IMG/VR virus record: IMGVR_UViG_3300037882_001481
Location: 1-28,353 of that record
Source: a virus
Direction: 5' to 3' (one strand)
DNA: 28,353 nt
Part shown: in pieces, positions 4,681-18,107 of the stretch
How positions within the stretch are numbered: the stretch's first letter is position 1
Layout of the letters: each line of letters starts with the position of its first letter
The notes under the pieces: generated by a model
Databases searched by the model: none
What the model was told of the DNA's origin: nothing
Seen by the model: the letters and a program-made list of their open reading frames with translations, nothing else
Program-made: the position numbers and the translations under genes

Positions 4681-4945
4681 ATTTCTTACATCCCCACTTC
4701 TTAGCTAAATTCTCGGACAACACCGCCGCTTCCTCTGCCGTGAACGTTGCCCGGCTCAACCGCAGCAACCGGTACTCCCTCGGAGTGTCGCTGTACTCTG
4801 TGAACTCCCCGGGCGGGTTGTCCATGGTCGGTGGTTCCGGCTCCTCCGGTGGACCTTGAATCATCAGCGCCTCGGACAACTTCATGTTGTCGTCCAGCAC
4901 CCCGAGGTCCATCAGGACATCAATCTCATCATCCGTTAGGGTCAT
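4625..4945 (-). CDS. Hypothetical acidic protein
   Basis: The 106-residue frame begins at an ATG 17 nt inside the nuclease gene, preceded by AAGGGGC. Residues 1-55 are acidic with a proline-rich patch ([15 protein letters not shown]), and the second half contains [28 protein letters not shown], probably two helices. The C-terminus, [12 protein letters not shown], is rich in aromatic and Cys residues and overlaps the start of HNH copy 2 in another frame. No family is recognised. Its place between nuclease genes gives no firm clue. Confidence 0.55.
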
Positions 4946-5252
4946 TGGCCTGCCCCTTCACTACAAGCTCTAGGAACCGGCGCAGCGGTATCAGGACCAG
5001 ACTCTCTTTGCTGTCCATTCTGGTAACGACGAGGTCGCATCCCTCGGGGATTTGCAGGAACTGTGGCAGCCGCTTACGGCGCTTTGCCTGCACTCGCCAC
5101 GACCCGATGACTAGGTCCACACTCTCAGCCAGGCCGAGCGACTGACCGTTGCTACCCCATGCTCGTTGAGATGGGATGCCGAATGCCCGGCCCAGCGCCA
5201 CCACCTCACGCTCGAACTGCGAGCCCTTGCGCTTACTCTTCAGCCCGCTCAC
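4929..5252 (-). CDS. PD-(D/E)XK nuclease, Holliday-junction-resolvase-like
   Basis: From the GTG at 5252 the protein is 107 residues and has the compact PD-(D/E)XK order seen in Hjc-type and phage resolvase-like nucleases: GSQFERE with the first acidic residue (E14 or E16), SVDLVIG with D46, and WRVQAKRRKRLPQFL with Q55-x-K57. It would act on branched DNA or as a small endonuclease at replication intermediates. GTG 5252 forms a GTGA overlap with the tiny membrane ORF; an ATG at 5264 and a longer frame upstream are less likely because they lack good ribosome sites. Nuclease fold likely, junction specificity inferred. Confidence 0.75.
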   Translation of the reverse strand: MSGLKSKRKGSQFEREVVALGRAFGIPSQRAWGSNGQSLGLAESVDLVIGSWRVQAKRRKRLPQFLQIPEGCDLVVTRMDSKESLVLIPLRRFLELVVKGQANDPNG

Positions 5253-5338
5253 TTCGACAACCATTCTCGAAACGGCGCGGTAACGAGCCACACGATCACC
5301 ACTAGATAAATAGCGCCTACTGCTGCCAACCATTCCAT
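5249..5338 (-). CDS. Single-helix membrane peptide (29 aa)
   Basis: A frame too short for ordinary gene calling, but well supported: GAGGAG lies 7 nt upstream of the ATG, the ATG shares a base with the methyltransferase-like gene's TAA (TAATG), and its TGA overlaps the nuclease GTG (GTGA). The peptide is one hydrophobic helix, MEWLAAVGAIYLVVIVWLV, followed by the short basic tail TAPFREWLSK. It would insert in the inner membrane. Function unknown; similar peptides occur at 9228-9305 and 18024-18107. Confidence 0.6.
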   Translation of the reverse strand: MEWLAAVGAIYLVVIVWLVTAPFREWLSK

Positions 5339-5895
5339 TACAACTCCTCCCCCCACTGCTCTGCCATCGCCTCCGCAATCCCTGCAAAGGTACGGCTCCG
5401 CTCTTTCCATCTGTCAGGACCTGGGGGCATCCGATGCACCCGCGCCTCTCGCCCATCGACCACGTCCGTGGGCTGTAACTGGGGCAACCCCTTCAACCAC
5501 AAGCACGTTTCCTTAGTCTCCCCGTGCCCGAATTGCCACGGCTGGACAATCTGATCTGGCTTACGTATCCGGCTGGAGATAATCCCCACCGGGTTCTCAA
5601 TTGCAATGCGAGGGATTGGGGCGTCCATCAACCGCCGTACAAACTCCAACGCTTCTTGCTGCTCCTGCTGCTTCTCTTTGAACCACCGCGCGCCGCTGAC
5701 TGCCAGGTGCGTACAGGGTGGGAACGCTATCAACAGGTCCCACTTCAACTCGAGCAGCTCTAGTACATCCCCCTTGATATGAGCCCACGAAACTTCCGAG
5801 TCCAGCAGGTCGCACGAGAACGCGTAGTGTCCCCTTCTACGGAACGCATCCCGCACGGCGCCTGAGAACTCGCAGGCAACCAACACCTTTGCCAT
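5338..5895 (-). CDS. C5-cytosine DNA methyltransferase-like protein (compact phage type)
   Basis: The 185-residue protein has the SAM-binding start VLVACEFSGAVRDAF, the SCDL acidic turn, FPPCTHLAVSGA (residues 58-69, equivalent to the catalytic PPC motif) and IENPVGIISSRI (the ENV-like motif, about 100). This family is common in phages and lacks the long target recognition region and C-terminal part of full Dcm enzymes, so target and activity are uncertain. A role in protecting or marking phage DNA is the usual inference. It begins 4 nt after the helicase stop and is followed by the TAATG-coupled membrane peptide. Confidence 0.75.
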   Translation of the reverse strand: MAKVLVACEFSGAVRDAFRRRGHYAFSCDLLDSEVSWAHIKGDVLELLELKWDLLIAFPPCTHLAVSGARWFKEKQQEQQEALEFVRRLMDAPIPRIAIENPVGIISSRIRKPDQIVQPWQFGHGETKETCLWLKGLPQLQPTDVVDGREARVHRMPPGPDRWKERSRTFAGIAEAMAEQWGEEL

Positions 5896-5899
5896 ACAA

Positions 5900-6934
5900 C
5901 TAGAACGGTTTCTCTCCTATGTTCCGCGACTCTCTCGTCGCCCAGTGCGGTAGGTACTTCTCAGGCACAGGCTCGAACTCCTGGCCCTTCTCCTTCCACA
6001 CCGCTCGCCCCAACGTGTACCGGTCCTCGTACGTGCCCCTGTACTTGTTGTAGTTCATCCGCGCTATCAGCGGACTCGCCCTCCCCCGCCTGTCCTTCTC
6101 CACACTGAAGTAGGTCGGGAACAGGTGCCTCTGACTCCGGTCCCCTGTCCTGTCCGGTGCGACCATTACAATCACCGTAGCTACACCTGCGATGTGCTTA
6201 CTCCCCAAGAGGTCATCCATCCCCGGGACTAGCCGTCGCGACTCCCCGGCTGTGGACTTGCGGATGTGACTGGCCGCGAGTACCGGTACGTTCTTGTCGA
6301 GGGCGAGGTCCCGCAGGAGTCCCACGGTGCGGCGCTGTGTCTGGTTCTCAGCTCCGTCCACAGAGTCAACAACGTGTATGTGGTCACAAGCAACGAGACC
6401 AGCGTCAGTGATAGCAGCCAGATGCTTGCTAAGTGTTGCATTCGTGAAGTCCCCCCTTCCCCGGTAGAGCGTGTGTAGCCGTGACAGCATCGGCTTGAGG
6501 TAAGCGGCAACAGAGTCCCAGTGCTCCCCCTCTTGTTGTTGTGTGCGACCGCGCCAGAAGTCTGCGAAGTCCAGTGAGGAGGGAGACAGCTTGGACAATT
6601 CCTCGAACGCCATCCGAGCTGCTATCTCGCCGGGAGTTGCCTCGAGAGCAAAGAGCCGTACGTCTCCGACGCCGTGCTGTAGTGCCGCTTTAACAGTAGA
6701 CGTGACCAGCGCTGTCTTCCCCACTCCGGGCGCGGCTCCGAGTATGACGAGATCGTCAGGGTAGAGACCTCCCAAGGCGTCATCCAGAAAAGCATTGCCA
6801 AAAGGGATGCGCTTAGATACGAGCCGGTCTCGGTCCTGGATGATAGTCGTGAGGTAGTCACTCTCAGGCCGGAACCCCTCAACTCCCAACGACCCTCCGC
6901 CACGCGAGGACTTCCGTATCCCCGATGTAGTCAC
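5900..6934 (-). CDS. DnaB-like replicative helicase (RecA-fold ATPase)
   Basis: A 344-residue RecA-fold ATPase with Walker A GAAPGVGKT at 66-74, a preceding IPFGNAFLDDALGGLYPDDLVI typical (in two parts) of DnaB C-domains, and later LVACDHIHVVD (Walker B region), VLAASHIRKS and GSKHIAGVATVIVM. It lacks the DnaB N-terminal primase-interaction domain, so it is a short phage version. It should unwind DNA at the fork with the primase and SSB of this operon. The GTG at 6934 was chosen because no ATG precedes Walker A; a TTG near codon 16 with GGAGGG just upstream is an alternative. It overlaps the preceding gene by 56 nt. Confidence 0.85.
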   Translation of the reverse strand: MTTSGIRKSSRGGGSLGVEGFRPESDYLTTIIQDRDRLVSKRIPFGNAFLDDALGGLYPDDLVILGAAPGVGKTALVTSTVKAALQHGVGDVRLFALEATPGEIAARMAFEELSKLSPSSLDFADFWRGRTQQQEGEHWDSVAAYLKPMLSRLHTLYRGRGDFTNATLSKHLAAITDAGLVACDHIHVVDSVDGAENQTQRRTVGLLRDLALDKNVPVLAASHIRKSTAGESRRLVPGMDDLLGSKHIAGVATVIVMVAPDRTGDRSQRHLFPTYFSVEKDRRGRASPLIARMNYNKYRGTYEDRYTLGRAVWKEKGQEFEPVPEKYLPHWATRESRNIGEKPF

Positions 6935-7136
6935 TACAACAGCCGCAGCCTCCTACCGCAGAGCCCGACGCCTCATCCGTAGAGCAGTCACCGATGAGCC
7001 ACTCTGTTTCCGTTGGGTTTGAGTAACCAACCATCACGCGTACCTCGACACCTCGCAACTCACTCGAGTACTGGAGCCCTAACACCCCGTGTAACTCGCG
7101 CAACGCAACAGGCTTCTCAAGTACAACCCACTCCAT
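6879..7136 (-). CDS. Hypothetical protein
   Basis: Eighty-five residues from an ATG at 7136 that follows the upstream stop by 3 nt with a GAGG site between. The sequence is beta-like in its middle (GVEVRVMVGYSN) and has a Cys/Gly cluster, GGCGCCSDYIGD, close to the C-terminal VLAWRRVV. It overlaps the helicase start by 56 nt. No family function is known to me. Its position just before the helicase fits a small accessory protein of the replication operon. Confidence 0.55.
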   Translation of the reverse strand: MEWVVLEKPVALRELHGVLGLQYSSELRGVEVRVMVGYSNPTETEWLIGDCSTDEASGSAVGGCGCCSDYIGDTEVLAWRRVVGS

Positions 7137-7139
7137 CCT

Positions 7140-7304
7140 CTACCCCTCGTTTGCAGTTCTGAAAAGCGAGTCCACCAAGTCCTCTGCCTCGCTCAGCAGC
7201 TCCATCGCATTGTCACGATCAGACTCGGACCAGTTGCTACTCAGCTCGTGGCTCATCGCCAGTAGCCGGTACAGGTTGCCCCTCAGTTGATTGAGATGCC
7301 TCAT
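7140..7304 (-). CDS. Small hypothetical protein (54 aa)
   Basis: A 54-codon frame from an ATG at 7304 with AGGGGG about 6 nt upstream, ending in a TAG 3 nt before the next start. The peptide is helical and acidic (NAMELLSEAEDLVDSLFR). Its first 68 nt overlap the tail of the preceding gene in another frame; the internal ATG at 7256 would reduce this overlap but has a poor ribosome site. No family recognised. Confidence 0.5.
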   Translation of the reverse strand: MRHLNQLRGNLYRLLAMSHELSSNWSESDRDNAMELLSEAEDLVDSLFRTANEG

Positions 7305-7563
7305 TGGTTTCCCCCTTCTTGCCGTCCAACGCCTCGGTCAATGCCGCAGTCTCTTCCTCGCTAAGACCCCGCCCAATACAATCCTTGATGAGCAGCGTCA
7401 CGCACGTAGCCATCGTATCGATGAGCACCTCCATGCGCGGTTTGTTCTGTACCTCCTGCATCGCATAGGCATTGAGGTTGGCCAGTTGCTCGGCCTGGTT
7501 CTTTAGCTTGTTCTCGATCGCGCGCAGCCGTTCAGTGGCTGGCTTACCCTTGTTCTTCTTCAT
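7237..7563 (-). CDS. Hypothetical coiled-coil protein
   Basis: The start at 7563 forms an ATGA overlap with HNH copy 3 and has AGGAG just upstream; an in-frame extension inside the HNH gene is not credible. The 108 residues begin with a basic helix (MKKNKGKPATERLRAIENKL), continue with a heptad-like coil to about residue 40, then a hydrophobic helix, MEVLIDTMATCVTLLIKDC, and end in a low-complexity acidic tail. No known family. It may be a small oligomeric accessory protein. Confidence 0.6.
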   Translation of the reverse strand: MKKNKGKPATERLRAIENKLKNQAEQLANLNAYAMQEVQNKPRMEVLIDTMATCVTLLIKDCIGRGLSEEETAALTEALDGKKGETNEASQSTEGQPVPATGDEPRAE

Positions 7564-8048
7564 TGTCTCCTGTTGTTCCTCTGCTCTTTGGCTGTGGCCC
7601 AGCGGCAATTCCCCGGTTCGTAATTGCCGTCGTTGTCGATGCGGTCGATGCTGTACCCAGAACCGGGGTGCCTGCCCATGTCTTCAAGGAACGCCTCAAA
7701 AGAATTTAGCCACCGCTCACACACCCTGATTCCACGCCCACCGTAGTCAGCCCACCGTGAGTTGTTAGGGTTCGTGCACCGCTGAATGACGTGTTGCCAA
7801 GCCTTGTATTCTCGCGTGCCATACATCCCGTGCTTGATGAAGCGAGCGACAAACATGTCTACAGACAGACAGCCGCACGACTTCGAGTTGCCTGTCCGCA
7901 GGTGATCACCAGTCGTAATAATTGTACTGCCGCAATCACAAGTACACAGCCAAGCAGCTTTACCTCGCCTTGATGATCCAGCGCGCTCTTTCACAAGTAA
8001 TCGCCCGTAGCGGTTTCCCGCCTCATCAATGACTTTGGCCATCCTCAC
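7560..8048 (-). CDS. HNH-type endonuclease-like protein, copy 3
   Basis: A full-length member (162 residues) with the N-terminal block GNRYGRLLV, the zinc-ribbon-like WLCTCDCG and SCGCL, then [53 protein letters not shown] and [12 protein letters not shown] near its 3' end (about 7580-7660) is almost identical to that of copy 2, implying recent duplication or gene conversion. The start may be the GTG at 8048 or the ATG at 8042; both lie inside the end of the primase gene. Cleavage activity is inferred from the family only. Confidence 0.8.
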   Translation of the reverse strand: MRMAKVIDEAGNRYGRLLVKERAGSSRRGKAAWLCTCDCGSTIITTGDHLRTGNSKSCGCLSVDMFVARFIKHGMYGTREYKAWQHVIQRCTNPNNSRWADYGGRGIRVCERWLNSFEAFLEDMGRHPGSGYSIDRIDNDGNYEPGNCRWATAKEQRNNRRQ

Positions 8049-8889
8049 TTAATTCTGGAAACAGTTCTCTAAGAGCCTCGGCTATTTCTTGCCAAGTGTT
8101 TCCTGCGTACCACTTAAGCCAGGCCGCTAGTGACGCCCCACCCTGTACGCCAGCGAAGGTGTTCTCTGCGGTTATCCAGCAAGGAGTGCTGTGCCAGCGA
8201 GAACTACCGGGAGACTTGACCAGCACGTTGAATTTCCCGCCACTGGTGGGGATCAATTTAAAGTGCTCTCCTTTGCAAAGGGGGTGGCCGCTGAGTTTCA
8301 ACAGTGCCTCTTTGGCTGGAAGCCCCGCTACTCTCCCCCAGAACGTCGCAGGTCCTAGGTCCTCTCGGAGCCTGTCAACCACGACCTCAACGCGCCGATC
8401 AGGGAACGCCTCGAGCATCTGAGCTTCGCTGTAGGCAAGTTCAGGCTCGTCGCACAGCGTTCGCACAAGGAAGGGCTGTCCTTTGTGATGATAGTAACCG
8501 GGTGCCCGCAGGAGCCGCAGTGGATCACTGGCTTTAGGGTCCGCAGCAAGGGCTGGAACAATGCCTCCACGAACGATGCGATTCCAATTGCCAAGAGTAG
8601 CGTCAACAGCCCTCCAATAAACGTGGTGACCTTTGGCAGTCTCCACAACCCGAGACGGCTTGAGGTGCTTCCCGATACGTTCGAGCTGCTCCTCTTTGGT
8701 CCCGGAGTCCAGGTCGGCGTACCAGTAATTGATACGCCTGAGGTTCTCCACTACACGTCTGCCCTCGTACTCATTGACGACGTGGAAGATGCCGAAGCCC
8801 CGAGTGTTCAACACCTTTGCTTGGTGCTTAGTACACCCCAGCGGTGCCCCCGCCTCCCTGTCGTGCAGGGCTAGCAGCTCAACCGTCAC
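8026..8889 (-). CDS. Archaeo-eukaryotic-type (PrimPol/RepB-like) primase
   Basis: The 287-residue protein shows the primase catalytic order: YWYADLDSG with D59 and D61, then ETAKGHHVYW (83-92, the basic-His motif), then DPLRLLRAPGYYHHKG (122-137). This matches the RepB-primase/PrimPol-like branch used by many phages in place of DnaG. It would lay primers for the family A polymerase. A downstream region of about 100 residues, ending in TWQEIAEALRELFPEL, may be a helical accessory domain. The GTG start at 8889 has AAGGTGG upstream and overlaps the GroES-like gene by 11 nt. Confidence 0.8.
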   Translation of the reverse strand: MTVELLALHDREAGAPLGCTKHQAKVLNTRGFGIFHVVNEYEGRRVVENLRRINYWYADLDSGTKEEQLERIGKHLKPSRVVETAKGHHVYWRAVDATLGNWNRIVRGGIVPALAADPKASDPLRLLRAPGYYHHKGQPFLVRTLCDEPELAYSEAQMLEAFPDRRVEVVVDRLREDLGPATFWGRVAGLPAKEALLKLSGHPLCKGEHFKLIPTSGGKFNVLVKSPGSSRWHSTPCWITAENTFAGVQGGASLAAWLKWYAGNTWQEIAEALRELFPELSEDGQSH

Positions 8890-9235
8890 GCACCACCTTC
8901 ATCACAAGCTGCGCGTAGTCCAAGCACAGGTACTCATCCACCGCCTCGGGGTAGAATGCCTCCACCTTCAGGCACCGCGCGTCCGGGTTAACGAACACCT
9001 CATCACCCACCACCAGCCCGGACTTCTCCGCAGCCTTGGGGCCAAGGGCCTTGACCGTGGCACGCTTGCCCGTGTTGCCTGCAAGTGTAATGAGACTGCT
9101 CGGGGACCTGAACTCAAGCAGGACCGAACGACCGAGCGGGGTCCGGGTGCTGTTCCCCTTACGAGCCTCGAGCCTCTCCACATTCTTCGCAATGGCCTCA
9201 GCGATTGGGCCTTGCCAAGCTGGGTTGTCACTCAC
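8879..9235 (-). CDS. GroES-like (chaperonin-10 fold) protein, tentative
   Basis: Residues 37-116 of this 118-residue protein read like a chaperonin-10 barrel: a VLLEF strand, ATVKALGPKAAEKSGLVVGD (the G-x-V-x-A-x-G-P and VGD segments), VFVNPD and a final EYLCLDYAQLVMKVV, comparable to the EYLIL..DIL.VV end of GroES. The usual mobile loop is short. The first 30 residues are helical. If real, it would be a phage co-chaperonin like T4 gp31, but it sits in the replication operon. The GTG at 9235 has GGGG about 8 nt upstream and overlaps the membrane peptide ORF by 8 nt. Confidence 0.5.
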   Translation of the reverse strand: MSDNPAWQGPIAEAIAKNVERLEARKGNSTRTPLGRSVLLEFRSPSSLITLAGNTGKRATVKALGPKAAEKSGLVVGDEVFVNPDARCLKVEAFYPEAVDEYLCLDYAQLVMKVVRDG

Positions 9236-9305
9236 GGTACAGCCCCACTACAGCCATGAGGGCCATCATCATGACCGCCGCGATATACGCCGTCAGGTAA
9301 TCCAT
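9228..9305 (-). CDS. Single-helix membrane peptide (25 aa)
   Basis: A 25-codon frame with AGGAGATG before its ATG. The ATG shares a base with the upstream TAA (TAATG). The peptide MDYLTAYIAAVMMMALMAVV plus GLYRE is a single hydrophobic helix with a short charged end. Its TGA lies 8 nt inside the next gene. A TGTAGTG motif copy (9246-9252) is within it. Function unknown. Confidence 0.55.
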   Translation of the reverse strand: MDYLTAYIAAVMMMALMAVVGLYRE

Positions 9306-9502
9306 TACTTCATCATCTCCTGGAGTTTTTGCAGCGCCTTGATAAGCGCAGCGAGTTCTTGGCTGCCTAGGTAGAGCTGAGTTGAGCTGTCGTAGCCGTC
9401 AAACAGCACTAAATTGACAGTGTCTTTGCCAACGGTCCCGAATAAGGACTTCGAGTCTTCACCTATAAAGGTACGGAGCGTGTCCTTCTTACGCTTCGCC
9501 AC
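9305..9502 (-). CDS. Small hypothetical protein
   Basis: Sixty-five residues from a GTG at 9502 that shares one base with the SSB stop (TAGTG); AGAGAGG lies about 10 nt upstream. A longer frame reading into the SSB gene is less likely. The peptide begins with a basic patch (AKRKKDTLRTF), has a beta-rich middle (VNLVLFDGYDSSTQLYLG) and ends in a helix, ELAALIKALQKLQEMMK. No family recognised; its position suggests an SSB-associated accessory role, which is speculation. Confidence 0.55.
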   Translation of the reverse strand: MAKRKKDTLRTFIGEDSKSLFGTVGKDTVNLVLFDGYDSSTQLYLGSQELAALIKALQKLQEMMK

Positions 9503-9822
9503 TAGAACGGCCTCTCTTCCCCACTGTTCTTGCCACCACACAGGGTCACGCGGTTGGCCACGATCTCGGTGGTGTACTTCTTCTCGCCGTCTTTTGTAGT
9601 GTACTCCCGGGTCTGCAGCCGGCCCGTGATGGCAATGAGGTCACCCTTCGCCACGTACTGCGCCACGACTTCAGCATCCTTGCCCCAAAGGCAGACGCGG
9701 TGCCACTCGGTCTTGTCACCGTATTCTTTAGTCGCCACGCTGATGGTGGCCGTCTTCTTGTCTCCGACTTCACGAAGCTCCGGGGCTTGGCCCAGGCGTC
9801 CAACGATATTCACAACGTTCAT
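9502..9822 (-). CDS. ssb: Single-stranded DNA-binding protein
   Basis: A 106-residue OB-fold SSB: MNVVNIVGRLGQAPELR, then KKTATISVATKEYGDKTEWHR, then AEVVAQYVAKGDLIAITGRL and the TTEIVANRVTLCG end. It is close in size to the bare OB domain of bacterial SSBs, with only a short tail, GGKNSGEERPF, whose last residues recall the acidic-plus-Phe tail of SSBs. It coats single strands during replication and annealing. It starts directly after the upstream TAG with AAGGAG in place. Confidence 0.93.
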   Translation of the reverse strand: MNVVNIVGRLGQAPELREVGDKKTATISVATKEYGDKTEWHRVCLWGKDAEVVAQYVAKGDLIAITGRLQTREYTTKDGEKKYTTEIVANRVTLCGGKNSGEERPF

Positions 9823-10632
9823 CTACTTCTCCTTGTTCTTGCTCAGCCAGTCACTACAACTCGTCCGTGAGGGACAGAACCTGCAGTGCTCGCCGGGGTT
9901 AACCTCAGGGTCCTTACCGGCTTTGATGTCCTCAGCTATTTGTTGTGCCTTCACGAGTGCCCGCTTCACTCGGCGCTCAAACAGATCGATGTCCTCTCTA
10001 GTCAGCAGCGCGGGCTTGTCCTTCACCTGCCACCGGTCCTCGGGCTTGCGCCGTAGGTCTTCCCTGATGCGCTGGAAGTTGACGATGACCCACAGTGCTT
10101 TGGGAGCCAGGGCTTTCACTACAACCATGGCGGCAAACAGAAGCTGCGCTGCCTTGTTTGGCTCCCCCACCCATTTGCCGAATTTGTAGTCGTTAATCTC
10201 AACCGAGAGGTACCCGACCCGCACCACGTCTAGCGTGCACGTGATGTCCAGCGGTCCGCGAGGTGCCATGCCCCGCTCCATGAGTGCCTCGTCGTACCTC
10301 CTGTTGACGTTACGTCCGATGACTTCGGCGGTACCGGTCTCTCCCCGGTACACAAAGGAGACCTCTCTGTCCTCTAGTCGCGTGCCCTTCGCCGCAGTTC
10401 GGTTGATTAGGGACAGGACCTCGGCGGCCCGTTGCCTGTGACGCTGCTCAATCCGTTCCAGTACAGCAGCCCCCTCTTCGATGCCGTACTCCAGAACCGT
10501 GTGACCAGCAGTGCCCCACGCTGCCGCCTCTGCGCTGTTGGGGTGTTGTGGGGCTGACTGTTCCAGTTGGTTGCTGGTTGGGCATTCCAGTCCGCGATCT
10601 AGGGAGCTGGCAGACTCCAGTAATGTCTTCAT
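9823..10632 (-). CDS. Cas4/RecB-like PD-(D/E)XK nuclease (DUF2800-like)
   Basis: The 269-residue protein has the DUF2800/Cas4-like layout: LDRGLECP at the start, WGTAGHTVLEYG with H44, GPLDITCTLDVV (acidic residues near 129-135), VEINDYKFGK with D148-Y-K150, and a C-terminal cysteine cluster CRFCPSRTSC that may hold an iron-sulphur cluster. Such phage nucleases resect DNA ends and work beside annealing proteins, here the next gene upstream (ATGA overlap). A standalone RecB-like exonuclease role is inferred. Confidence 0.85.
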   Translation of the reverse strand: MKTLLESASSLDRGLECPTSNQLEQSAPQHPNSAEAAAWGTAGHTVLEYGIEEGAAVLERIEQRHRQRAAEVLSLINRTAAKGTRLEDREVSFVYRGETGTAEVIGRNVNRRYDEALMERGMAPRGPLDITCTLDVVRVGYLSVEINDYKFGKWVGEPNKAAQLLFAAMVVVKALAPKALWVIVNFQRIREDLRRKPEDRWQVKDKPALLTREDIDLFERRVKRALVKAQQIAEDIKAGKDPEVNPGEHCRFCPSRTSCSDWLSKNKEK

Positions 10633-11222: not shown

Positions 11223-11223
11223 C

Positions 11224-11544
11224 CTAGTTACTTCCCCCGTCCAACTTCCCCAGCTCAGCCCTAATGCTCTGAGACAAATAATCCTCGTCCATCATCCGCT
11301 CGGTAATCCCCGACTTGAGCCCCGGCGTCATGGACAGCACCGTCACCTGGATGCGTTCCACCTGGTCCTCGTCGGAATCCGCATCGCACATCATCGCGGC
11401 TAGAATCGTGCCGATGGTGCGGAGTCGGTCCACTTGCGGCCAGTCCTTCATTACCGTCATCACCTCCACCACCTGCTTGACCCATGCCAGCCGTTCCAAA
11501 AGCTCAGCCTTGCTAAGCCCGTCCACTACACTCTTCTTCAACAC
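11224..11544 (-). CDS. Hypothetical protein
   Basis: The start is uncertain: GTG 11544, TTG 11541 (a TTGA overlap with the polymerase stop) and GTG 11526 are all possible. I list the GTG at 11544, giving about 106 residues. The protein is mostly helical (AELLERLAWVKQVVEVM, QVERIQVTVLSMTPG, SQSIRAELGKL) with several acidic patches (DADSDEDQ). No family recognised. Its place between polymerase and annealing protein suggests an accessory replication factor, by position only. Confidence 0.5.
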   Translation of the reverse strand: MLKKSVVDGLSKAELLERLAWVKQVVEVMTVMKDWPQVDRLRTIGTILAAMMCDADSDEDQVERIQVTVLSMTPGLKSGITERMMDEDYLSQSIRAELGKLDGGSN

Positions 11545-12836
11545 TCCCCCCACGATCGGCCGGTCCCCCCAGCCACACTCAACTTGCACCGGAAATCCAC
11601 CAGCCCCTCAAGGCACCCGGTCATCCGCGTCTCAACCTCAGCACGCACATCCGCAACCACATTACTCGGACAAGTCCAGAGCAGGGAGTCATGCACCTGA
11701 AGCACGAGCTTGCTGCCCATATCCCGCAACCGCCCGTTGTACAACTCACTACAATCCCTCATCGCAACACTAACGATGTCTGCCGCGCTGCCCTGAATCG
11801 GATAGTTAAGCGCCAAGCGTTCGGCCTTTTGTCGTGTAAACCTGTTAGCGTGAATCTCAGGGACCGGGACGTACCGACCGAGCAGGGTGCGGACGTAGCC
11901 GTGGGTCTTAACGTAGTCCACCGCATCCACCAGCCACTGCGCGACACCCGGCTTGGCTGCGAGCAAGGCATTAATCAAGTCCTCTGCTTCGTCCTCGGAA
12001 ACCCCGAGTTGAGCCGCCAGCCCCTTCGCAGTCTTTCCGTAGTTGAGGCTATAAACCAGTATCTTAGCCGCAGCTCTCGACACAGGCCGACCCAGCTTCG
12101 CAGTCATGCCGTCTGCCGTGGCTTGGTGGATGTCACCTTTCTCAATCTCCTGAGCTAGCGAGTTGTCCCCGTATCGCTTTGCCACGATGTGCGCAAGGAT
12201 GCAGAGTTCGAGTGCGCTGTAGTCCATCTCAAGGAACACACAACCCTCAGGCGCGATAAACACGTCCTTAATCTCGGGTCCTTGATTCTGCAGATTTGGG
12301 TTCTTTGAAGTGAGCCTTCCAGTTCTGGCGAGAGCCCCTAACTGCGTGTGCACCCGACCGGTGGCCTCGGCATGGGCAGGTAGCGCCTCGTAGAATTGTT
12401 TTGTCGTCTTGAGCTTCGCCCAGCTAGGTTCGTGCTCTCGTGCTTTGACATCCGGCCAGCCTTGCAAGAGTCGCAGGTGCTTGCGGTCCTCTTGGTTTTG
12501 TAGTGTGCGGGCCAGGTGCAGCACTGCCATCTCGTCGGTAGGACGCTTCCCGGCCTTCACGTACTTCACGGCTCGGGTGTTCCCGCAGACCGGTGGCACC
12601 GGCCAGCCTCTGGTACCGTAGAAGAACTCAGCCTTCTGCTTGGGACTGCCCCAGTTGATCTCGCGCCCGGCCCACTGGTTGAGTTGTTCGCCTATGGCCT
12701 GTTGCTGCTCTTGGCACTCTTGGGCACGTTGCCGGCAGAGGTCGGGGTCAAGGCCGAGACCGTGACTCTCCATCTCCGACACTACACGAGCGGCGGGCTG
12801 CCAGACCGCGTTATGAAACTCCCACGCGTTACGCAT
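11538..12836 (-). CDS. Family A DNA polymerase without its own exonuclease domain
   Basis: The 432-residue polymerase holds only thumb, fingers and palm. Motif A is LEMDYSALELC with D205 and E210; the O-helix is R254-AAA-K258-ILV-Y262-SLN-Y266-G; IQGSAADIV is at 347-355; motif C is LQVHDSLLW with H382-D383. Motif C reads VHDS where most relatives have VHDE. Tyr at the O-helix 262 position resembles T7 polymerase. No 5'-3' or 3'-5' exonuclease precedes it; a separate exonuclease gene lies 400 nt upstream in the same operon. The ATG at 12836 makes a TGATG overlap with the upstream gene and is preferred to the GTG 3 nt before it. Confidence 0.9.
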   Translation of the reverse strand: MRNAWEFHNAVWQPAARVVSEMESHGLGLDPDLCRQRAQECQEQQQAIGEQLNQWAGREINWGSPKQKAEFFYGTRGWPVPPVCGNTRAVKYVKAGKRPTDEMAVLHLARTLQNQEDRKHLRLLQGWPDVKAREHEPSWAKLKTTKQFYEALPAHAEATGRVHTQLGALARTGRLTSKNPNLQNQGPEIKDVFIAPEGCVFLEMDYSALELCILAHIVAKRYGDNSLAQEIEKGDIHQATADGMTAKLGRPVSRAAAKILVYSLNYGKTAKGLAAQLGVSEDEAEDLINALLAAKPGVAQWLVDAVDYVKTHGYVRTLLGRYVPVPEIHANRFTRQKAERLALNYPIQGSAADIVSVAMRDCSELYNGRLRDMGSKLVLQVHDSLLWTCPSNVVADVRAEVETRMTGCLEGLVDFRCKLSVAGGTGRSWGEC

Positions 12837-13057
12837 CACTTCGGGTCGTACTTAATTGGGATGTACCAGATAGTGTTAGGCGGACAGGCAGGGTCTACGC
12901 GGATGGTCCAATTCCCATTGGCTAGCTCCTTCGCAGAGACCGGCTTTGCTGGTGCGTCCTCACACTCGCAATACCAACTCACACTGGTAAACAACGGGAC
13001 CTGCTTCATCCCCGAGCCACACCCACTACACTTCACAGCCCCTCCGTCAATGCTCAC
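12836..13057 (-). CDS. Small zinc-finger-like protein
   Basis: Seventy-three residues from a GTG at 13057 in a GTGA overlap with the upstream stop; an in-frame extension to 13078 exists. Cysteines are arranged as KCSGCGSGM and, about 17 residues later, WYCECED, a possible four-Cys zinc site. The C-terminal half, NWTIRVDPACPPNTIWYIPIKY, appears beta-rich. It lies between exonuclease and polymerase genes. Function unknown. Confidence 0.5.
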   Translation of the reverse strand: MSIDGGAVKCSGCGSGMKQVPLFTSVSWYCECEDAPAKPVSAKELANGNWTIRVDPACPPNTIWYIPIKYDPK

Positions 13058-13254
13058 GCTTCTGGTAAACCGTCCCACTCCTGCAACAACCCCTCTAGCT
13101 CACATTCAAGCCCTCTCACGTCCTTGAGGACTGCGCACCCGGCTGGATAAAGGCATACGTGGTGGTGATTCAAAAACCACCGCGCATAGGCCAAGGACGC
13201 CCGACACCCGCGAATCCAAAACCACAACCTAATCCGGCGTAACCACCGCCTCAC
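13054..13254 (-). CDS. Small basic protein with hydrophobic N-terminus
   Basis: Sixty-six residues from a GTG at 13254 (GTGA overlap with the exonuclease stop; GGAGG about 10 nt upstream). The N-terminus VRRWLRRIRLWFWIRGCRAS is strongly basic and aromatic, followed by LAYARWFLNHHHVCLYPAGC, with a His/Cys group. It could be membrane-associated or nucleic-acid-binding. The tail is acidic and helical (GLECELEGLLQEWDGL). No family known to me. Confidence 0.5.
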   Translation of the reverse strand: MRRWLRRIRLWFWIRGCRASLAYARWFLNHHHVCLYPAGCAVLKDVRGLECELEGLLQEWDGLPEA

Positions 13255-13967
13255 CAACGACGCCCCTCCATCCTCTTCTTCAACTTCTCGTACACTCTCA
13301 AACTCACAACTGGGTCGGTGCAGGCGTACTGCTTGATGGCTTCCCTACGCTCAGGCGTGTCTCTCCAAACCTCGTCCTGCCCGAGCTGCTGCACTACAAC
13401 CTTGAAGCGAACCTCTTGGTACTCCCCGCCCCTCAGCGTCGGCCACAACACCTGCGCCCTCGGCGCCCACGACTCACGTTTGTACTGTTTGACCTTGCCC
13501 GGCACAGTGACTAGACGTTCCACGGTGACCAGTTCCTCGAAGGTGCCTGCTTTGTTGTGGCCAATCCGTGCGCCCCACGCTTCCAGTGAGTGACCGCCGT
13601 GCTCGTCAATGTCCGGTCGTGAGTCCATGAGTCTGCTCATCAGTGCGGTGTCGGCGAGAATCCCGGACAGCTCGATGCCCTCGTTGCGCAGTGCGTGTCT
13701 GTCAAATCCCCAGAGGTTCGTGCCCACCTTCTGAGGACGGTCGCACTCCAGCCAGTCCCGCAGGAAGGGGAGGTACTCGCGGTGAACGAGGCAGGAGGTT
13801 TGTTGCCACGCTAGAGTCATCACGAATACCCTCGCCCTTCCCACGGGACTGACTCCGTCGTCAGGTGACCAACCCGTGGTCTCGAGATCTAGCCCAACCG
13901 GGTTCGGGAAATCACACAGCCAGTCGTTAAGGCGCCGGGCCTCTTCTTCGCTTCGGACTTCCAACAC
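13251..13967 (-). CDS. 3'-5' exonuclease (DnaQ/RNase D-like fold), stand-alone
   Basis: The protein carries the three DEDD exonuclease motifs: VGLDLETTGW (D27, E29), KVGTNLWGFDRHAL (D89) and, near the C-terminus, YACTDPVVSLRVY with the Tyr and final Asp. This is the proofreading domain normally fused to family A polymerases, here encoded separately and expressed ahead of the polymerase. I choose the GTG at 13967 (238 residues), which has GGTGAGGG about 7 nt upstream; the frame stays open to 14039 but that would overlap the preceding gene by 150 nt. A large insert lies between motifs 2 and 3. Confidence 0.85.
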   Translation of the reverse strand: MLEVRSEEEARRLNDWLCDFPNPVGLDLETTGWSPDDGVSPVGRARVFVMTLAWQQTSCLVHREYLPFLRDWLECDRPQKVGTNLWGFDRHALRNEGIELSGILADTALMSRLMDSRPDIDEHGGHSLEAWGARIGHNKAGTFEELVTVERLVTVPGKVKQYKRESWAPRAQVLWPTLRGGEYQEVRFKVVVQQLGQDEVWRDTPERREAIKQYACTDPVVSLRVYEKLKKRMEGRRW

Positions 13968-14101
13968 TCCAACACCCTCACCTGATACCCCAGCGGCATC
14001 ACCCGAGTAGGCTCGCTCTCCCAACTGTCCTGCACACAAGCCGGGCAGTCGTCGTCATCCTGCAACTTGCCCCAGCTCTGCCCACAACAGTCGCACTTCA
14101 C
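13889..14101 (-). CDS. Small zinc-ribbon protein
   Basis: Seventy residues from a GTG at 14101 in a GTGA overlap. The N-terminus MKCDCCGQSWGKLQDDDDCP continues with AC, giving a C-x-x-C...C-x-x-C zinc ribbon in the first 22 residues. The tail overlaps the exonuclease start by 79 nt in another frame and is less convincing. It is one of three small zinc-binding candidates in this stretch. Function unknown. Confidence 0.5.
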   Translation of the reverse strand: MKCDCCGQSWGKLQDDDDCPACVQDSWESEPTRVMPLGYQVRVLECWKSEAKKRPGALTTGCVISRTRLG

Positions 14102-14313
14102 TTGCCACCACGAATCTCGGCCAGTAGCCGGGCAATCTCTGGAACACGCGGGGGGATTGAGATGTCATGCTCTGTGAACAGAGCGAGTTGTTCAGCGTCC
14201 AACACCCAACTGTCCTGCTGCTCTCGTTCGTGGACCTCGGTGATCGTGTCCTCGTCCTCCCAGCCCGACTCAGAATCCTCGATGAAAGAAACCGTGACGT
14301 AGTCGTTCTTCAT
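14098..14313 (-). CDS. Acidic hypothetical protein
   Basis: Seventy-one residues from the ATG at 14313, which forms an ATGA overlap with the upstream stop; the in-frame extension to 14334 is rejected for that reason. It is strongly acidic (FIEDSESGWEDEDTITEVHE) with a helical C-terminus (VPEIARLLAEIRGGK). No family recognised. An acidic small early protein could mimic DNA, but nothing in the sequence shows it. Confidence 0.5.
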   Translation of the reverse strand: MKNDYVTVSFIEDSESGWEDEDTITEVHEREQQDSWVLDAEQLALFTEHDISIPPRVPEIARLLAEIRGGK

Positions 14314-14600
14314 TGCCCCACTCCCCTTTCCCACAAGAGACGTTCCTTAACTTCGGCCATTGGGATTGTCCGTCCCTGGTCCAACCTCACTTCAATCAGC
14401 ACCAACTCATCCGTATCCGGGCCACGCTCCCAACCCCTCGGACACGACCCCGGCGCCTCGGCCAAGTTGACGCTGCCGCACGCTAGGCACGCCTTTTTGT
14501 AGTGATGGGGCTGTTGCCACTCGCAGTCCCGGCAGAAGCAGTGGTGCCGTTTAGCCAGCGCCAGACTCACGCGGTTAGCCCGCCACGGGTGCTGCCTCAC
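14310..14600 (-). CDS. Small zinc-ribbon protein
   Basis: Ninety-six residues from a GTG at 14600 (GTGA overlap). It contains a HCFCRDCEW ... ACLACGSVNL arrangement, a treble-clef or zinc-ribbon pattern with the two Cys pairs about 13 residues apart, flanked by basic residues. The C-terminal half is mixed charge (EVRLDQGRTIPMAEVKERLL). It may bind nucleic acid. No named family recognised. Confidence 0.55.
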   Translation of the reverse strand: MRQHPWRANRVSLALAKRHHCFCRDCEWQQPHHYKKACLACGSVNLAEAPGSCPRGWERGPDTDELVLIEVRLDQGRTIPMAEVKERLLWERGVGQ

Positions 14601-14863
14601 AGGCCACCTCCCACTACACCAGCGGCCTGTAAAGCACCTAACGCAACTTTCCTAGCACGGTACTGGTCCCACCACTCATGGAAGCCCTCGATGAACTGGG
14701 CCACAAACCAAGTGGACTTGACCGTTCGGCCGTTACCCCAGAACGCAATGCGAGCGACTCGGGCTCTAGCATCACGTCCGTACCCCTTTACTTCGACTTT
14801 GAAAACCACCTTGCGGGGAGGGCGCGCGTGTGGCAGTCTGTACCTGTTCTGGCCTTGTGACAT
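14597..14863 (-). CDS. Hypothetical basic protein, first gene of the leftward replication operon
   Basis: Eighty-eight residues from an ATG at 14863 with only a weak ribosome site. The protein is basic and beta-rich near the start (RKVVFKVEVKGYGRDARARV) and has WFVAQFIEGFHEWWDQYRAR, an aromatic helix. It is the first gene after the 167-bp gap downstream of the integrase, so its leader may hold the operon promoter. No family recognised. Confidence 0.55.
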   Translation of the reverse strand: MSQGQNRYRLPHARPPRKVVFKVEVKGYGRDARARVARIAFWGNGRTVKSTWFVAQFIEGFHEWWDQYRARKVALGALQAAGVVGGGL

Positions 14864-15030
14864 TGGTCCGGAGCACTTTCTGGGTCTCGACGGTTCCAGC
14901 CGCCGGGGCCCTTTTTCGTTGTTGTTATGTGAAGCTAGTGTGGTCTCGATGAGTACAGTTCAATTCAAGAGATAACCCGTCTAAATCCTTGAACTGTCCT
15001 CTTCTACTATAAATGAGAAGAATTTAATAA
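14864..15030. other. Intergenic region next to integrase: candidate attP or control site
   Basis: This 167-bp gap lies just downstream of the integrase stop. It holds a perfect 9-bp inverted repeat, ACAGTTCAA at 14955-14963 and TTGAACTGT at 14989-14997, with a 25-bp spacer; a direct repeat GGTCTCGA at 14883-14890 and 14942-14949; and an A+T-rich end (15005-15035). Inverted core-like repeats beside a tyrosine integrase gene are typical of attP, but an operator or leftward promoter region is equally possible. Confidence 0.4.
14892..14916 (+). terminator. Possible intrinsic terminator (plus strand)
   Basis: GGTTCC (14892-14897) can pair with GGGGCC (14905-14910) through two G-U pairs, leaving a 7-nt loop, and CTTTTT follows. 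The stem is short. It would stop plus-strand transcription entering the leftward operon. Confidence 0.3.
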
Positions 15031-15963
15031 TTACTGACGGTTACCGCTTATCCCTGAATGGCGTTTCAATAAATCCGCCACCTTGGCTTGCTCCACAAAT
15101 TCAACGGTACCCGGAGCAACGTAGCTACCGCGCGAAACCGCAAAGCTGGAGTGACCCATGTCTTTGGAGATGGCGCGCTGGTACGAGTCATCACACAACA
15201 CCCGCAGCGTGGCGTACGTCCTGCGCAGAGCATGGACCGTGAGAACCGGTACCCCAGCTAGCTTGTAGTGATTGTAGATACGCTCGCGCAGCTGCTCTTG
15301 CTGGAACGGCCATCCGTCCGAACGCGTGAATACAAACGTCTCCCCAGTCTGCTCGCCCTTCCACCTAAGAAGGAGTTCGGCAACGTCTTCAGACAGGCGG
15401 GCTGGCCTACGGGCGTTACGGTTCTTAACTCGCTTTTTACGCGACAGACCCACCCACACCACGGTACCGCCACCGTCCACAGCCCGGGCAGTAATCCCTA
15501 GCACCTCACCAAATCGCAGCCCACCATCTAGACAGATGAGAGCCACCATCGCAGCAACATCAGCCTGGGCGCTGATTAGCAGATGAGCCCGGAGCTTCAC
15601 CGCTTCCTCCATGGTGAACTGGGGCTGTGGTCCCTCATCACAATCGCGCAGGGACTCCAGCAGAGAGAGGATCGCGTCATCCTCCCACGGGTGCTCCACT
15701 ACAAACTTCTTTCGCCTAAGCCAGGTCCAGAAGCCCTTGACGTGTCGCGCACCCTGTTTGGCTGTGCTAGCCATTCGCCCTTCGCACCAAGCTGCTAGAT
15801 GATGGGCCAAGAGTTCGGGCGATACTTCATCAGGTGTGCGTTTTTGAAGTGGGCCTACTACCTCAGAGAGGGTACTCTCCACGGCGCCGGCTGACTTCTT
15901 AGTCGTGCTCGACTGTTTCAGCAGTACGTACTCGTTCATTAGTGACTCCAGTGTCTTTTTCAT
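15031..15963 (-). CDS. int: Tyrosine integrase
   Basis: The 310-residue protein from the ATG at 15963 (AAAGGA 5-6 nt upstream) has all tyrosine recombinase landmarks: GLRFGEVLG with R150, VHALRRTYATL with H244 and R247, MGHSSFAVSRGSYV with H271 and the nucleophile Y281. The N-terminal 110 residues form the SAM-like core-binding domain; there is little room for an arm-binding domain. The upstream in-frame extension (22 residues) has no ribosome site. It would catalyse site-specific integration and excision. It is read leftward, with a strong promoter-like element about 275 bp upstream. Confidence 0.93.
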   Translation of the reverse strand: MKKTLESLMNEYVLLKQSSTTKKSAGAVESTLSEVVGPLQKRTPDEVSPELLAHHLAAWCEGRMASTAKQGARHVKGFWTWLRRKKFVVEHPWEDDAILSLLESLRDCDEGPQPQFTMEEAVKLRAHLLISAQADVAAMVALICLDGGLRFGEVLGITARAVDGGGTVVWVGLSRKKRVKNRNARRPARLSEDVAELLLRWKGEQTGETFVFTRSDGWPFQQEQLRERIYNHYKLAGVPVLTVHALRRTYATLRVLCDDSYQRAISKDMGHSSFAVSRGSYVAPGTVEFVEQAKVADLLKRHSGISGNRQ

Positions 15964-16267
15964 CCGGTCCTTTCCGGATTCAGACGGGTCACTAGTTATA
16001 GCACTGCACTGCGCATTGCCCCGGTACATTTACCACCCCCAGCGGGAACACTCCCGACCCCACTCCTAACGAATACCCTGAACGAAAGTTCTGTGTCCAG
16101 CAAAATTTGCGTATCACCTAAGCCCGTAACCCCACTAAGGCTTACATTACAACTTCCCTACTAGTACTAACCTACCTCCACCGCCCCAGTCCGTAACCAC
16201 TCCCTATATACATAGATTAGCCCCATTTCAGAGAGGGTGTCAAGCACTATCTCACAACCTGCTATAA
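15964..16267. promoter_or_regulatory. Control region upstream of the integrase
   Basis: This 304-bp gap has no gene. It holds the minus-strand promoter at 16214-16254, an imperfect palindrome GGGAACACTCCC near 16043, one CACCTAAG copy (16115-16122), TAAGCC and GGCTTA as a 6-bp inverted repeat between about 16118 and 16143, and two CCGTAACC copies (near 16124 and 16191). The repeats look like regulator binding sites. Confidence 0.5.
16214..16254 (-). promoter_or_regulatory. Leftward sigma70-type promoter
   Basis: On the minus strand a perfect -35 box TTGACA (16238-16243) is followed, after 18 bp, by TAATCT (16214-16219) as a weak -10. The 17 bases TGAGATAGTGCTTGACA are identical to those of the rightward promoter at 20739-20755. 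It would serve the integrase and possibly genes beyond it. Confidence 0.6.
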
Positions 16268-16471
16268 CTACCCCGGTTTCCGGCCCCCGTATTTTTCGTC
16301 CATGGCGGCGATTTCGGCGGCAGCGGCGGCACTGGCTACTCTCTTCAGCCAGGTGCTCAGCGACACCCCGGCAATGGCTGCTGCTTCTTCCCAGAAGGCA
16401 ATTTGCCCGCGCCTCACCCGGATGTTGAGCTGTTGACCTTTGCTGGATTCCTGCTTGTCGTCGTCACTCAT
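16268..16471 (-). CDS. Small ribbon-helix-helix/MobC-like DNA-binding protein
   Basis: Sixty-seven residues from the ATG at 16471, with AGGTGA 5 nt upstream. After a polar start (MSDDDKQESSKGQQ) comes LNIRVRRGQIAFWEEAAAIA and GVSLSTWLKRVASAAA. A beta strand plus two helices of this type is shared by Arc/MetJ-like repressors and MobC/plasmid mobilisation proteins. It is a good candidate regulator of the nearby promoters. The gene is flanked on both sides by CTTAGGTG repeats that could be its binding sites; that link is inference. Confidence 0.6.
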   Translation of the reverse strand: MSDDDKQESSKGQQLNIRVRRGQIAFWEEAAAIAGVSLSTWLKRVASAAAAAEIAAMDEKYGGRKPG

Positions 16472-16574
16472 GCTTTTCACCTAAGGATTGTAGTGTAAGC
16501 GCCTAAGACTGTCTAGCACCTAAGGGGGTCATTCGTCACTCTAGCACCTAAGAGGGGATTCGGGTTTGAACCCA
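16472..16574. repeat. CTTAGGTG repeat cluster
   Basis: In about 100 bp there are three CACCTAAG copies (16478-16485, 16517-16524, 16545-16552), one CGCCTAAG (16500-16507) and a TGTAGTG copy (16489-16495). Two copies extend to the 13-bp direct repeat TCTAGCACCTAAG (16512-16524 and 16540-16552), 28 bp apart. The first lies in the ribosome site of the regulator gene. Further copies occur at 15362, 16115, 16995, 17003 (tandem) and 17253. Confidence 0.6.
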
Positions 16575-16976
16575 TTAGTCATCATCTTCGGCCCAGACAT
16601 AACCCTCTCGTCGCAACTCCCCTTGAAGTTCCTCGGACTTTATCTCTTCGGCACGGATGACCAGCGGGATGCCCTTGTATTCGGCGCCATCGCTTAGGTA
16701 CTTGGCTAACGGTATCCCAGTTGAGAGGTCGTATCCTTTGCCCCTCCACTCACATTTCCTGAAATAAGCGGTGGCTTCTTCAAGACTGTTGGCCTCATCA
16801 ACCGAGTAGTCCGCACCACAACACGTGCAAGTAACTCGATAGGGGTTACGTCCAAACCTGTTTTGAAAAACCCGCACCGCTTGGTCCAAGGGAGCTTCTA
16901 TAAAGATAAGTCCCCAGTCCAACTTCTGCCCACCACCCGAAGACATATCCCAGAACTGTGTCCACTTACCGCTCAT
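16575..16976 (-). CDS. Conserved phage protein with Cys motif
   Basis: A 133-residue protein from an ATG at 16976 (AGGGGG 6 nt upstream) with YRVTCTCCGADYSVDEANSL in the middle, a CTCCGADY-type pattern recurring in small phage proteins, and a very acidic end (EGYVWAEDDD). The segment LVIRAEEIKSEELQGEL suggests a helix. The Cys group could hold metal with partners elsewhere. Function unknown. It overlaps the P-loop gene by 11 nt. Confidence 0.6.
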   Translation of the reverse strand: MSGKWTQFWDMSSGGGQKLDWGLIFIEAPLDQAVRVFQNRFGRNPYRVTCTCCGADYSVDEANSLEEATAYFRKCEWRGKGYDLSTGIPLAKYLSDGAEYKGIPLVIRAEEIKSEELQGELRREGYVWAEDDD

Positions 16977-17412
16977 CTCCTACCCCCTGTTTTTCACCTA
17001 AGCACCTAAGCGACTCCACAAACCCTTCCACGTCTTCTAGCACCTGTCTCGAATCCACGGCTCTGTAGCACTCCCTACCCCGCCACGGTGCTAGGTCCCG
17101 GTCTATCTTCGAGGCTAGGCCCTTGTGGCTCGGGTCTGCCAGGCCGTCACGTATGCACTCTATAAGCACGTCCGGGGTCCATACCTCACGATCACCTTTA
17201 CTGCCACTGTTCAGGAGTCGTGACGCGCCACACCCCTCCAGTATCGAGTTATCACCTAAGCGGGACAACATCACGGCTGGTTGCTGGTCCCAGGATAGCC
17301 ACGCTACATCGTCCCAGTGTAGCAATGTACACTCTAGGTATAGCTTCGTGTGGATTGCCCGGGCCAGTGTAGTCTTACCAGACCGGGGCACGCCAGTTAT
17401 GAGCAATTTCAA
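16966..17412 (-). CDS. P-loop nucleoside/nucleotide kinase-like protein
   Basis: From the TTG at 17412, which overlaps the upstream TGA as TTGA and has AGAGGTGA 5 nt before it, the protein has 148 residues. It opens with [20 protein letters not shown], a Walker A loop (GVPRSGKT), and continues with [15 protein letters not shown] and [11 protein letters not shown], resembling the lid and acceptor regions of small phage kinases. The substrate is not clear. A tandem CACCTAAG pair lies in its last codons (16995-17010) and one more at 17253. Confidence 0.7.
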
Positions 17413-18023
17413 GGCATCACCTCTTTCCAAGTTCTGCCTTTCACAGCGTCCCTCAGAGTTGCCTCGTGCACGCCGAATGCTTTAGCGATAACAGTCACCT
17501 GCGCACCGCGCGCTGCTAAGACCCTGGCACACAGCACAATCAACTCGGACAATCGAGTGCTCCTCCGGTTTCTTGCTTGCTCGTCCACGGATGCCCATCT
17601 GCAGTTACCCGGTTCGTAGTCACCGTCGTTATCGATGCGGTCAATGCTATACCCTGCAGGGCAAGTGCGCATGTCGCCTAAGAACGCTTCAAATGACTCG
17701 TCCCATTCCGGACAGACCTTTATTTCACGCCCACCGTAGCGCGGGTAATCCTTGTGTTTGGGTTTATTACAACGGCCGCGCATCCCAATCCACGCATGGT
17801 GCGTTGGGGTATGAGACCTACCGTGGCGTGGTAAGCGCCCCAGCATGGTGGCCATTTCAGCCTTCAGGCACCCGCACGACTGGGACTCGCCACGCACAAG
17901 ATTGGGTCCGAATACGTCACGCTCTGTGCCGCAGGAGCACCGACATGCCCAGTGTTGTTTCCGCTCGGACTTCGCCAGCACAGTCCATCTGCCAAACTGA
18001 GCACCGACTGTTACAGTCCGCAC
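17409..18023 (-). CDS. HNH-type endonuclease-like protein with C-terminal HTH, copy 4
   Basis: The longest family member (204 residues). The N-terminal block [20 protein letters not shown] is followed by CRCSCG and SCGCL; the core has [57 protein letters not shown] and CRWASVDEQ. Residues 155-200 ([36 protein letters not shown]) form a helix-turn-helix tail as in copy 2. The GTG at 18023 directly follows the TAG of the membrane peptide gene. Endonuclease activity inferred from family. Confidence 0.8.
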
Positions 18024-18107
18024 CTAGTACCTCCACTCCTGCACCACAAACAAATAAGCAACAGCCACAACCGTCAACACCAGCCCCGGCATCCACACCT
18101 CAAACAT
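18024..18107 (-). CDS. Single-helix membrane peptide (27 aa)
   Basis: A 27-codon frame with GGAGG about 8 nt before its ATG, starting inside the end of the preceding gene. The peptide MFEVWMPGLVLTVVAVAYLF plus VVQEWRY is one transmembrane helix with a charged end. Its TAG is directly followed by the HNH copy 4 GTG. Third example of this gene type in the window. Confidence 0.55.
   Translation of the reverse strand: MFEVWMPGLVLTVVAVAYLFVVQEWRY

Follow-up and report, generated by a model that had tools for sequence, protein, structure and literature searches.

In the 28,353-base virus record IMGVR_UViG_3300037882_001481 of IMG/VR, the whole of which we call the window, three short frames lie at the junctions between longer genes: pep1 (5338 to 5249, MEWLAAVGAIYLVVIVWLVTAPFREWLSK), pep2 (9305 to 9228, MDYLTAYIAAVMMMALMAVVGLYRE) and pep3 (18107 to 18024, MFEVWMPGLVLTVVAVAYLFVVQEWRY). 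We propose that these are single-span membrane microprotein genes in the replication-gene operon of an integrase-carrying phage and that their products would be accessory and directed at the host, a reading to which we give a probability of roughly 0.6. An earlier note on this DNA, made from the letters alone, had pointed to the three frames; they were found where it placed them, all on the minus strand. That observation is right, and what it describes exceeds chance. Small phage genes of this kind are already known, though often overlooked, and a survey of small phage genes was reportedly made by Fremin et al. in 2022 (cited in PMC11364881).

The three frames stand out by their hydrophobicity. 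Each is predicted to encode one membrane-spanning hydrophobic helix, as the earlier note had held, judged here by the Kyte-Doolittle scale only. The best 17-residue means are 2.56, 2.33 and 2.41 (here and below in the order pep1, pep2, pep3), which are ranks 1 to 3 among the 419 frames of 20-60 residues in the window. Only 3-5 residues precede this 17-residue core and 3-9 follow it. The net charge before the core is -1 in each and after it +1, 0 and 0, with basic residues found only after the core. Under the positive-inside rule this suggests an orientation with the N-terminus outside and the C-terminus inside, a prediction that is firmer for pep1 than for the other two.

Placement is a separate measure. 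Ribosome sites were sought only as exact substrings of AAGGAGGTGA at 3-12 nucleotides (nt) from the start. By this measure the claim that every frame has a strong ribosome site holds for pep1 and pep3, whose sites are well spaced at 7 and 6 nt, and does not hold for pep2, whose AGGAG lies 11 nt away. Although the pep1 frame is open upstream as far as an ATG at 5410 (53 residues), its ribosome site serves the ATG at 5338. With a start, a stop, a ribosome site and a length of 25-29 residues, all three have the makeup of a microprotein, for which the length limit is about 50 residues. The junctions described are also there, and on both sides of each frame, with spacings of -1 and -4 for pep1, -1 and -8 for pep2, and -8 and 0 for pep3. 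In other words, five of the six peptide junctions are -1, -4 or -8, which are the gene-overlap spacings given as enriched in a review (PMC12548453) and are those associated with coupling. The -4 junction of pep1 depends on GTG 5252 being the start of the resolvase-like gene, which has further in-frame starts upstream (ATG 5456 and ATG 5264). The gaps between genes that the peptides fill measure 85, 69 and 76 nt, and no other gap in the gene list between 926 and 14039 exceeds 4 nt. The gene list includes an entry (7237-7566) with no start codon at its beginning and heavily overlapping entries near 7140-7566, flaws that affect the list of gaps and leave the peptide sites untouched. A pick by placement only (ATG start, 20-45 residues, junctions on both sides) returned pep1, pep2 and pep3 together with two frames that lack a ribosome site, 25227-25346 and 25354-25416.

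We shuffled each gap, margins included, 20,000 times with dinucleotides preserved, at thresholds that were chosen with the peptides already seen. ATG frames that bridge the gap with 20 residues or more arose in 981, 1969 and 705 of the 20,000 shuffles (about 5, 10 and 3.5%). Adding a ribosome site of at least 5 nt to the bridging ATG frame gave 156, 153 and 107, and when a hydropathy of at least 2.2 was demanded as well, 0, 0 and 2 remained. The in-frame per-codon log-odds, taken from small codon samples, are 0.078, 0.181 and 0.223; the corresponding value is 0.134 +/- 0.065 in the gene list, and the peptides' other frames range from -0.227 to 0.004. Three such frames in 28 kb looks high, yet the window was chosen because the frames had been noticed in it.

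A peptide of like design is found in cyanophages. NATL2A-133 carries an unannotated 25-residue frame, MTTFIVWVCIVTLLYIFLKNVHQNY, which overlaps an annotated gene (-4) and is preceded by an 8-nt ribosome site. A search with this stretch gave 8 records, three of them second accessions, and one record per phage was used for five Tangaroavirus phages: NATL2A-133, 9515-10a, P-SSP6, P-SSP10 and P-SCSP-R27W (R27W). The frame is present at equal length in all five; it has no listed feature in the four annotated records, and the fifth record carries no annotation. Its sequence is the same in 9515-10a and P-SSP6. For the four distinct sequences a simple count put the proportion of synonymous differences (pS) at 0.40-0.67 and of nonsynonymous differences (pN) at 0.02-0.09, so that the changes are mostly synonymous, on a base of few changes (before splitting, 9-14 per pair in five pairs and 8 in the sixth). 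Presence in five of five phages and mostly synonymous change indicate that selection has kept a 25-residue peptide of this design in at least one phage genus.

This cyanophage peptide is like pep1, pep2 and pep3 in its length, its one helix, its overlap with the upstream stop and its basic residues after the helix. It differs in that the upstream overlap is -4 instead of -1 or -8, in its TTG start in three of the five phages, and in having no downstream junction, since in the four annotated records 67-165 nt separate it from the annotated gene that follows. A ribosome site precedes it in NATL2A-133, 9515-10a and P-SSP6. In R27W a 46-residue frame has been inserted upstream, the -4 overlap has been re-formed and no clear ribosome site lies directly before the peptide. 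It is conserved in the five phages examined, and it shows no visible relation in sequence to the peptides of the window, the two not having been formally compared. Because it neither abuts the next gene in the annotated records nor visibly resembles pep1, pep2 or pep3, it supports the class and not those peptides directly. Taken with the shuffles, the codon use and the junction spacing, it supports the suggestion that the three frames represent a real class missed by length cut-offs.

Several results weigh against our proposal. The fourth-ranked frame by hydropathy, 24737-24862, scores 2.29, near pep2. Further along the window there are unfilled gaps of 58, 167, 238, 94 and 163 nt (those of 94-238 nt beyond 14863), which makes the gap-filling argument weaker for pep3 than for pep1 and pep2. 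None of the peptides has a match in Pfam (E<=0.1) or PHROGs (E<=1), and tblastn against 50,697 phage records at E<=10 gave none, a weak search for 25-29 hydrophobic residues. These empty searches leave the conservation of the three peptides unsupported. In a comparison set of 165 other loci (2.15 Mb), with hydrophobic defined as at least 1.9, the tie between ribosome sites and hydrophobicity is weak: among frames with junctions on both sides, 5/18 with a ribosome site of at least 5 nt are hydrophobic, 6/32 with one of 4 nt and 9/90 with none (5/18 vs 9/90, p 0.056). When a simple gene caller was used, the hydrophobic junction frames numbered 3/17 vs 9/127. A similar tilt is seen antisense (20/250 vs 197/4875) and inside genes (20/177 vs 76/2174), so base composition may account for part of the tie.

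Missing homologues are what would be expected of a phage with no close kin in the searched collections. Scans of IMG/VR with one protein at a time (polymerase, helicase, terminase, portal and exonuclease) yielded no confirmed relative, and none turned up when the primase-like protein and the polymerase were run against bacterial and archaeal genomes, both kinds of scan being able to detect close relatives only. Searching phage records at the nucleotide level with the first 24 kb of the window returned nothing, and neither did tblastn with the portal. Alignment scans with the polymerase (A1) and the methyltransferase (A2), each keeping the best 80 loci, beyond which nearer kin may lie, gave loci that have one or a few genes in common with the window. 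Locus L106 has four (methyltransferase 71%, metallophosphoesterase 38%, terminase 34%, polymerase 29%) and is not close kin of the window phage. A polymerase-motif scan led to a single contig, L181, with which no shared proteins were detected at E<=1e-3.

Gene ends with adjoining hydrophobic tiny frames are a minor, recurrent feature of these other loci: a hydrophobic frame of 20-60 residues directly follows 15/906 gene ends in methyltransferase loci and 19/1332 in polymerase loci. Beside the methyltransferase itself such frames occur upstream in 5/82 loci and downstream in 3/82, and beside the polymerase and the SSB gene in 0 and 0 of 78 and 0 and 0 of 2, respectively. The idea that tiny membrane frames go with the methyltransferase was considered and dropped, as the downstream count, the only one compared, is not special relative to other gene ends (3/82 vs 19/1332 in polymerase loci, p 0.13, and 15/906 in methyltransferase loci). 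Five polymerase contigs (L041, L065, L073, L079 and L081) have similar hydrophobic frames of 55-60 residues after gene ends; with a core like WTLLGMFVAW, these possibly form a small conserved membrane protein family.

Hypothetically, pep1, pep2 and pep3 would work as follows. A ribosome finishing the upstream gene would restart at the overlapping ATG of the peptide, aided by the ribosome site. The 25-29-residue product would then enter the inner membrane as one helix, with its basic residues in the cytoplasm, and during infection would bind or perturb either a membrane protein of the host or the membrane as such. Helix-to-helix binding or a change in the membrane is the likely mode, because there is no room for catalysis or for a separate binding part. 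Most likely the three serve as accessories that act on the membrane of the host. Ribosomes may also be passed on to the next gene at the end of each peptide. We take this as a side effect, since a ribosome site of at least 4 nt is missing before the genes after pep1 and pep2 but present for the HNH gene after pep3, and 18 of the 38 gene-list entries lack one.

If that relay were instead the whole purpose, the frames would be translated so that ribosomes reach the next gene, and the peptide would be dispensable. The canonical junctions at both ends of the peptides fit this reading, as do the missing ribosome sites after pep1 and pep2 and the way in which the insert in R27W restores a -4 junction despite the want of a clear site before the peptide. 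However, a relay needs no helix, yet no other of the 419 frames is as hydrophobic as these three; the HNH gene behind pep3 comes with a site of its own, the lack of one is common in the gene list anyway, and direct overlap of the flanking genes would suffice without the frames. We consider a pure relay unlikely. It is distinctly less probable that the frames are recent and transient, that is, translated hydrophobic peptides, born in gaps, that have so far gained hardly any selected function or none. The empty homologue searches speak for this, and small hydrophobic proteins from random sequence are reported to be able to have effects, emerging frames tending to be hydrophobic (PMC10065794). 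Against it stand the quality of the ribosome sites, the canonical form of the junctions and the codon use in frame, and missing homologues are to be expected of a phage without close kin in the collections searched. The shuffles make it very unlikely that the frames are chance open frames in spacer DNA that go untranslated: although bridging frames arise readily enough, few come with a ribosome site and next to none with the hydropathy as well.

Two further readings concern replication, and both seem to us scarcely credible. One treats pep1, pep2 and pep3 as a set of membrane-inserting frames spaced along the replication operon, each acting in cis as an mRNA tether instead of a free protein, by which the translating mRNA and the new replication proteins would be drawn to the membrane as ribosomes move on between genes; we judge it highly improbable. 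The other, to which we give the least credence of all, is the earlier note's proposal that the peptides anchor the replication machinery to the membrane, for which p16.7 of phi29, a larger phage membrane anchor, offers an analogue. In its favour, pep1 and pep2 are surrounded by helicase, SSB, primase-like and polymerase genes. However, pep3 adjoins an HNH endonuclease gene, and flanks as short as those of the three peptides are too small for a separate DNA- or replisome-binding part, so that anchoring is left unsupported. A holin or lysis peptide was considered and rejected as well: the direct neighbours are methyltransferase, resolvase-like and HNH genes and frames of no family, with no adjoining endolysin gene, and the sole endolysin-type PHROG label in the window (3078-3602) is not adjacent to any of the peptides. 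The best PHROG of that minus-strand gene is phrog_5033, labelled 'endolysin; inhibits RNA polymerase', and the gene also matches a dATP/dGTP pyrophosphohydrolase family, so the endolysin label may mislead.

Membrane microproteins acting on the host, as we propose for pep1, pep2 and pep3, have partial counterparts. Both small phage proteins (PMC11323111) and small bacterial membrane proteins (PMC7549839) are established topics. YohP of E. coli, at 27 residues, is similar in size and consists essentially of one transmembrane segment (PMC7549839, PMC12719787). It is described as inserted via the signal recognition particle (SRP) and FtsY with SecYEG or YidC (PMC7549839) and as lowering membrane potential and fluidity (PMC12719787); unlike our peptides it is encoded by a host gene and its membrane insertion is demonstrated, the likeness being one of size and build only. 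Gp11 of Staphylococcus phage PhiNM1 is reported as a small early membrane protein that binds MurG and DivIC (PMC11237401). It thus parallels the host-directed action that we propose for a small phage membrane protein, and it differs in having 53 residues, two predicted helices and demonstrated targets. In Lactococcus phage sk1 a 36-residue frame, short like ours and similar to a predicted membrane protein, is reported as translated on the evidence of ribosome profiling (PMC10986495), which sets it apart from pep1, pep2 and pep3, to which it is likened by description only. Of the cytotoxic genes in mycobacteriophage LeBron, some that rank among the most toxic are said to encode proteins of fewer than 100 residues (PMC13148394).

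The window consists of a long block of minus-strand genes and a plus-strand block that includes terminase and portal-like genes. The minus block encodes two metallophosphoesterases, a nucleotide phosphatase, a DNA methyltransferase, a DnaB-like helicase, SSB, a PD-(D/E)XK nuclease, an integrase, HNH endonucleases, a family A polymerase in two frames and a primase-like protein (weak match). The features that bear on the three peptides are collected in the table.

Table. Positions of the peptides, their ribosome sites and neighbouring genes in the window, and of comparison frames in other loci (labels beginning with L are our own)
Feature	Position	Strand	Basis or remark
pep1, 29 residues, one predicted transmembrane helix, ATG start	5249..5338	-	sequence, hydropathy
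pep2, 25 residues, one predicted transmembrane helix, ATG start	9228..9305	-	sequence, hydropathy
pep3, 27 residues, one predicted transmembrane helix, ATG start	18024..18107	-	sequence, hydropathy
Ribosome site GGAGG of pep1	5346..5350	-	7 nt from ATG, within the methyltransferase gene end
Ribosome site AGGAG of pep2	9317..9321	-	11 nt from ATG, weak spacing
Ribosome site AGGAGGT of pep3	18114..18120	-	6 nt from ATG
DNA methyltransferase, upstream of pep1	5338..5895	-	phrog_757; TAA and pep1 ATG overlap by 1 nt
Resolvase-like gene, downstream of pep1	4929..5252	-	phrog_244, E 1.2e-6; GTG and pep1 TGA overlap by 4 nt
78-residue frame, no assigned family, upstream of pep2	9305..9541	-	behind the SSB gene; TAATG overlap (-1)
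118-residue frame, no assigned family, downstream of pep2	8879..9235	-	GTG overlaps the pep2 end by 8 nt
55-residue frame, upstream of pep3	18100..18267	-	its end overlaps pep3 by 8 nt
HNH endonuclease gene, downstream of pep3	17409..18023	-	phrog_374; GTG start abuts the pep3 end
Ribosome site GGAGGT of that HNH gene	18029..18034	-	in the last pep3 codons
HNH endonuclease-like genes	2625-3077, 4180-4680, 7560-8048, 17409-18023	-	with the next row: three by PHROGs, two by shared tblastn loci
HNH endonuclease-like gene	21421-22245	+	see preceding row
Hydrophobic frames upstream of the methyltransferase, other loci	L093, L108, L133, L149, L170		
Hydrophobic frames downstream of the methyltransferase, other loci	L101, L157, L162		
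Tangaroavirus 25-residue peptide	L089:3218-3295; L182 and L183:3464-3541; L184:438-515; L185:575-652		

Several of the genes in the window deserve mention in their own right. The small methyltransferase is conserved far above the rest of the window, with up to 75% identity across 401 phage records that range from an archaeal virus to cyanophages, and a Pfam search with it at E<=0.1 gave no match. The family A polymerase (11538-14039, minus strand) is split into an exonuclease part (13251-14039) and a polymerase part (11538-12839), which are consecutive on phrog_17 and have two small frames between them. Its motifs DYSALELC and LNYGKTAKG are unusual in comparison with the other loci, in which YSQI is the most frequent form (64 loci). 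The 28 kb also hold five HNH endonuclease-like genes, all from a single family, which amount to a burst of free-standing nuclease genes. On the plus strand, the frame 20007-20489, if read from an internal ATG (20157-20489), reads MRKLWLAILTTLLGGCGG, which resembles a lipoprotein signal with a putative lipobox.

Genes as short as 25-29 codons fall under the cut-offs usual in gene finders. Placement and hydrophobicity converge, as separate measures, on pep1, pep2 and pep3, and the conserved cyanophage peptide backs the recipe. A filter that combines a ribosome site, a canonical overlap and one helix could find more genes of this kind. If these peptides do act on host membrane proteins, they would offer short candidates on which such action may be tested.

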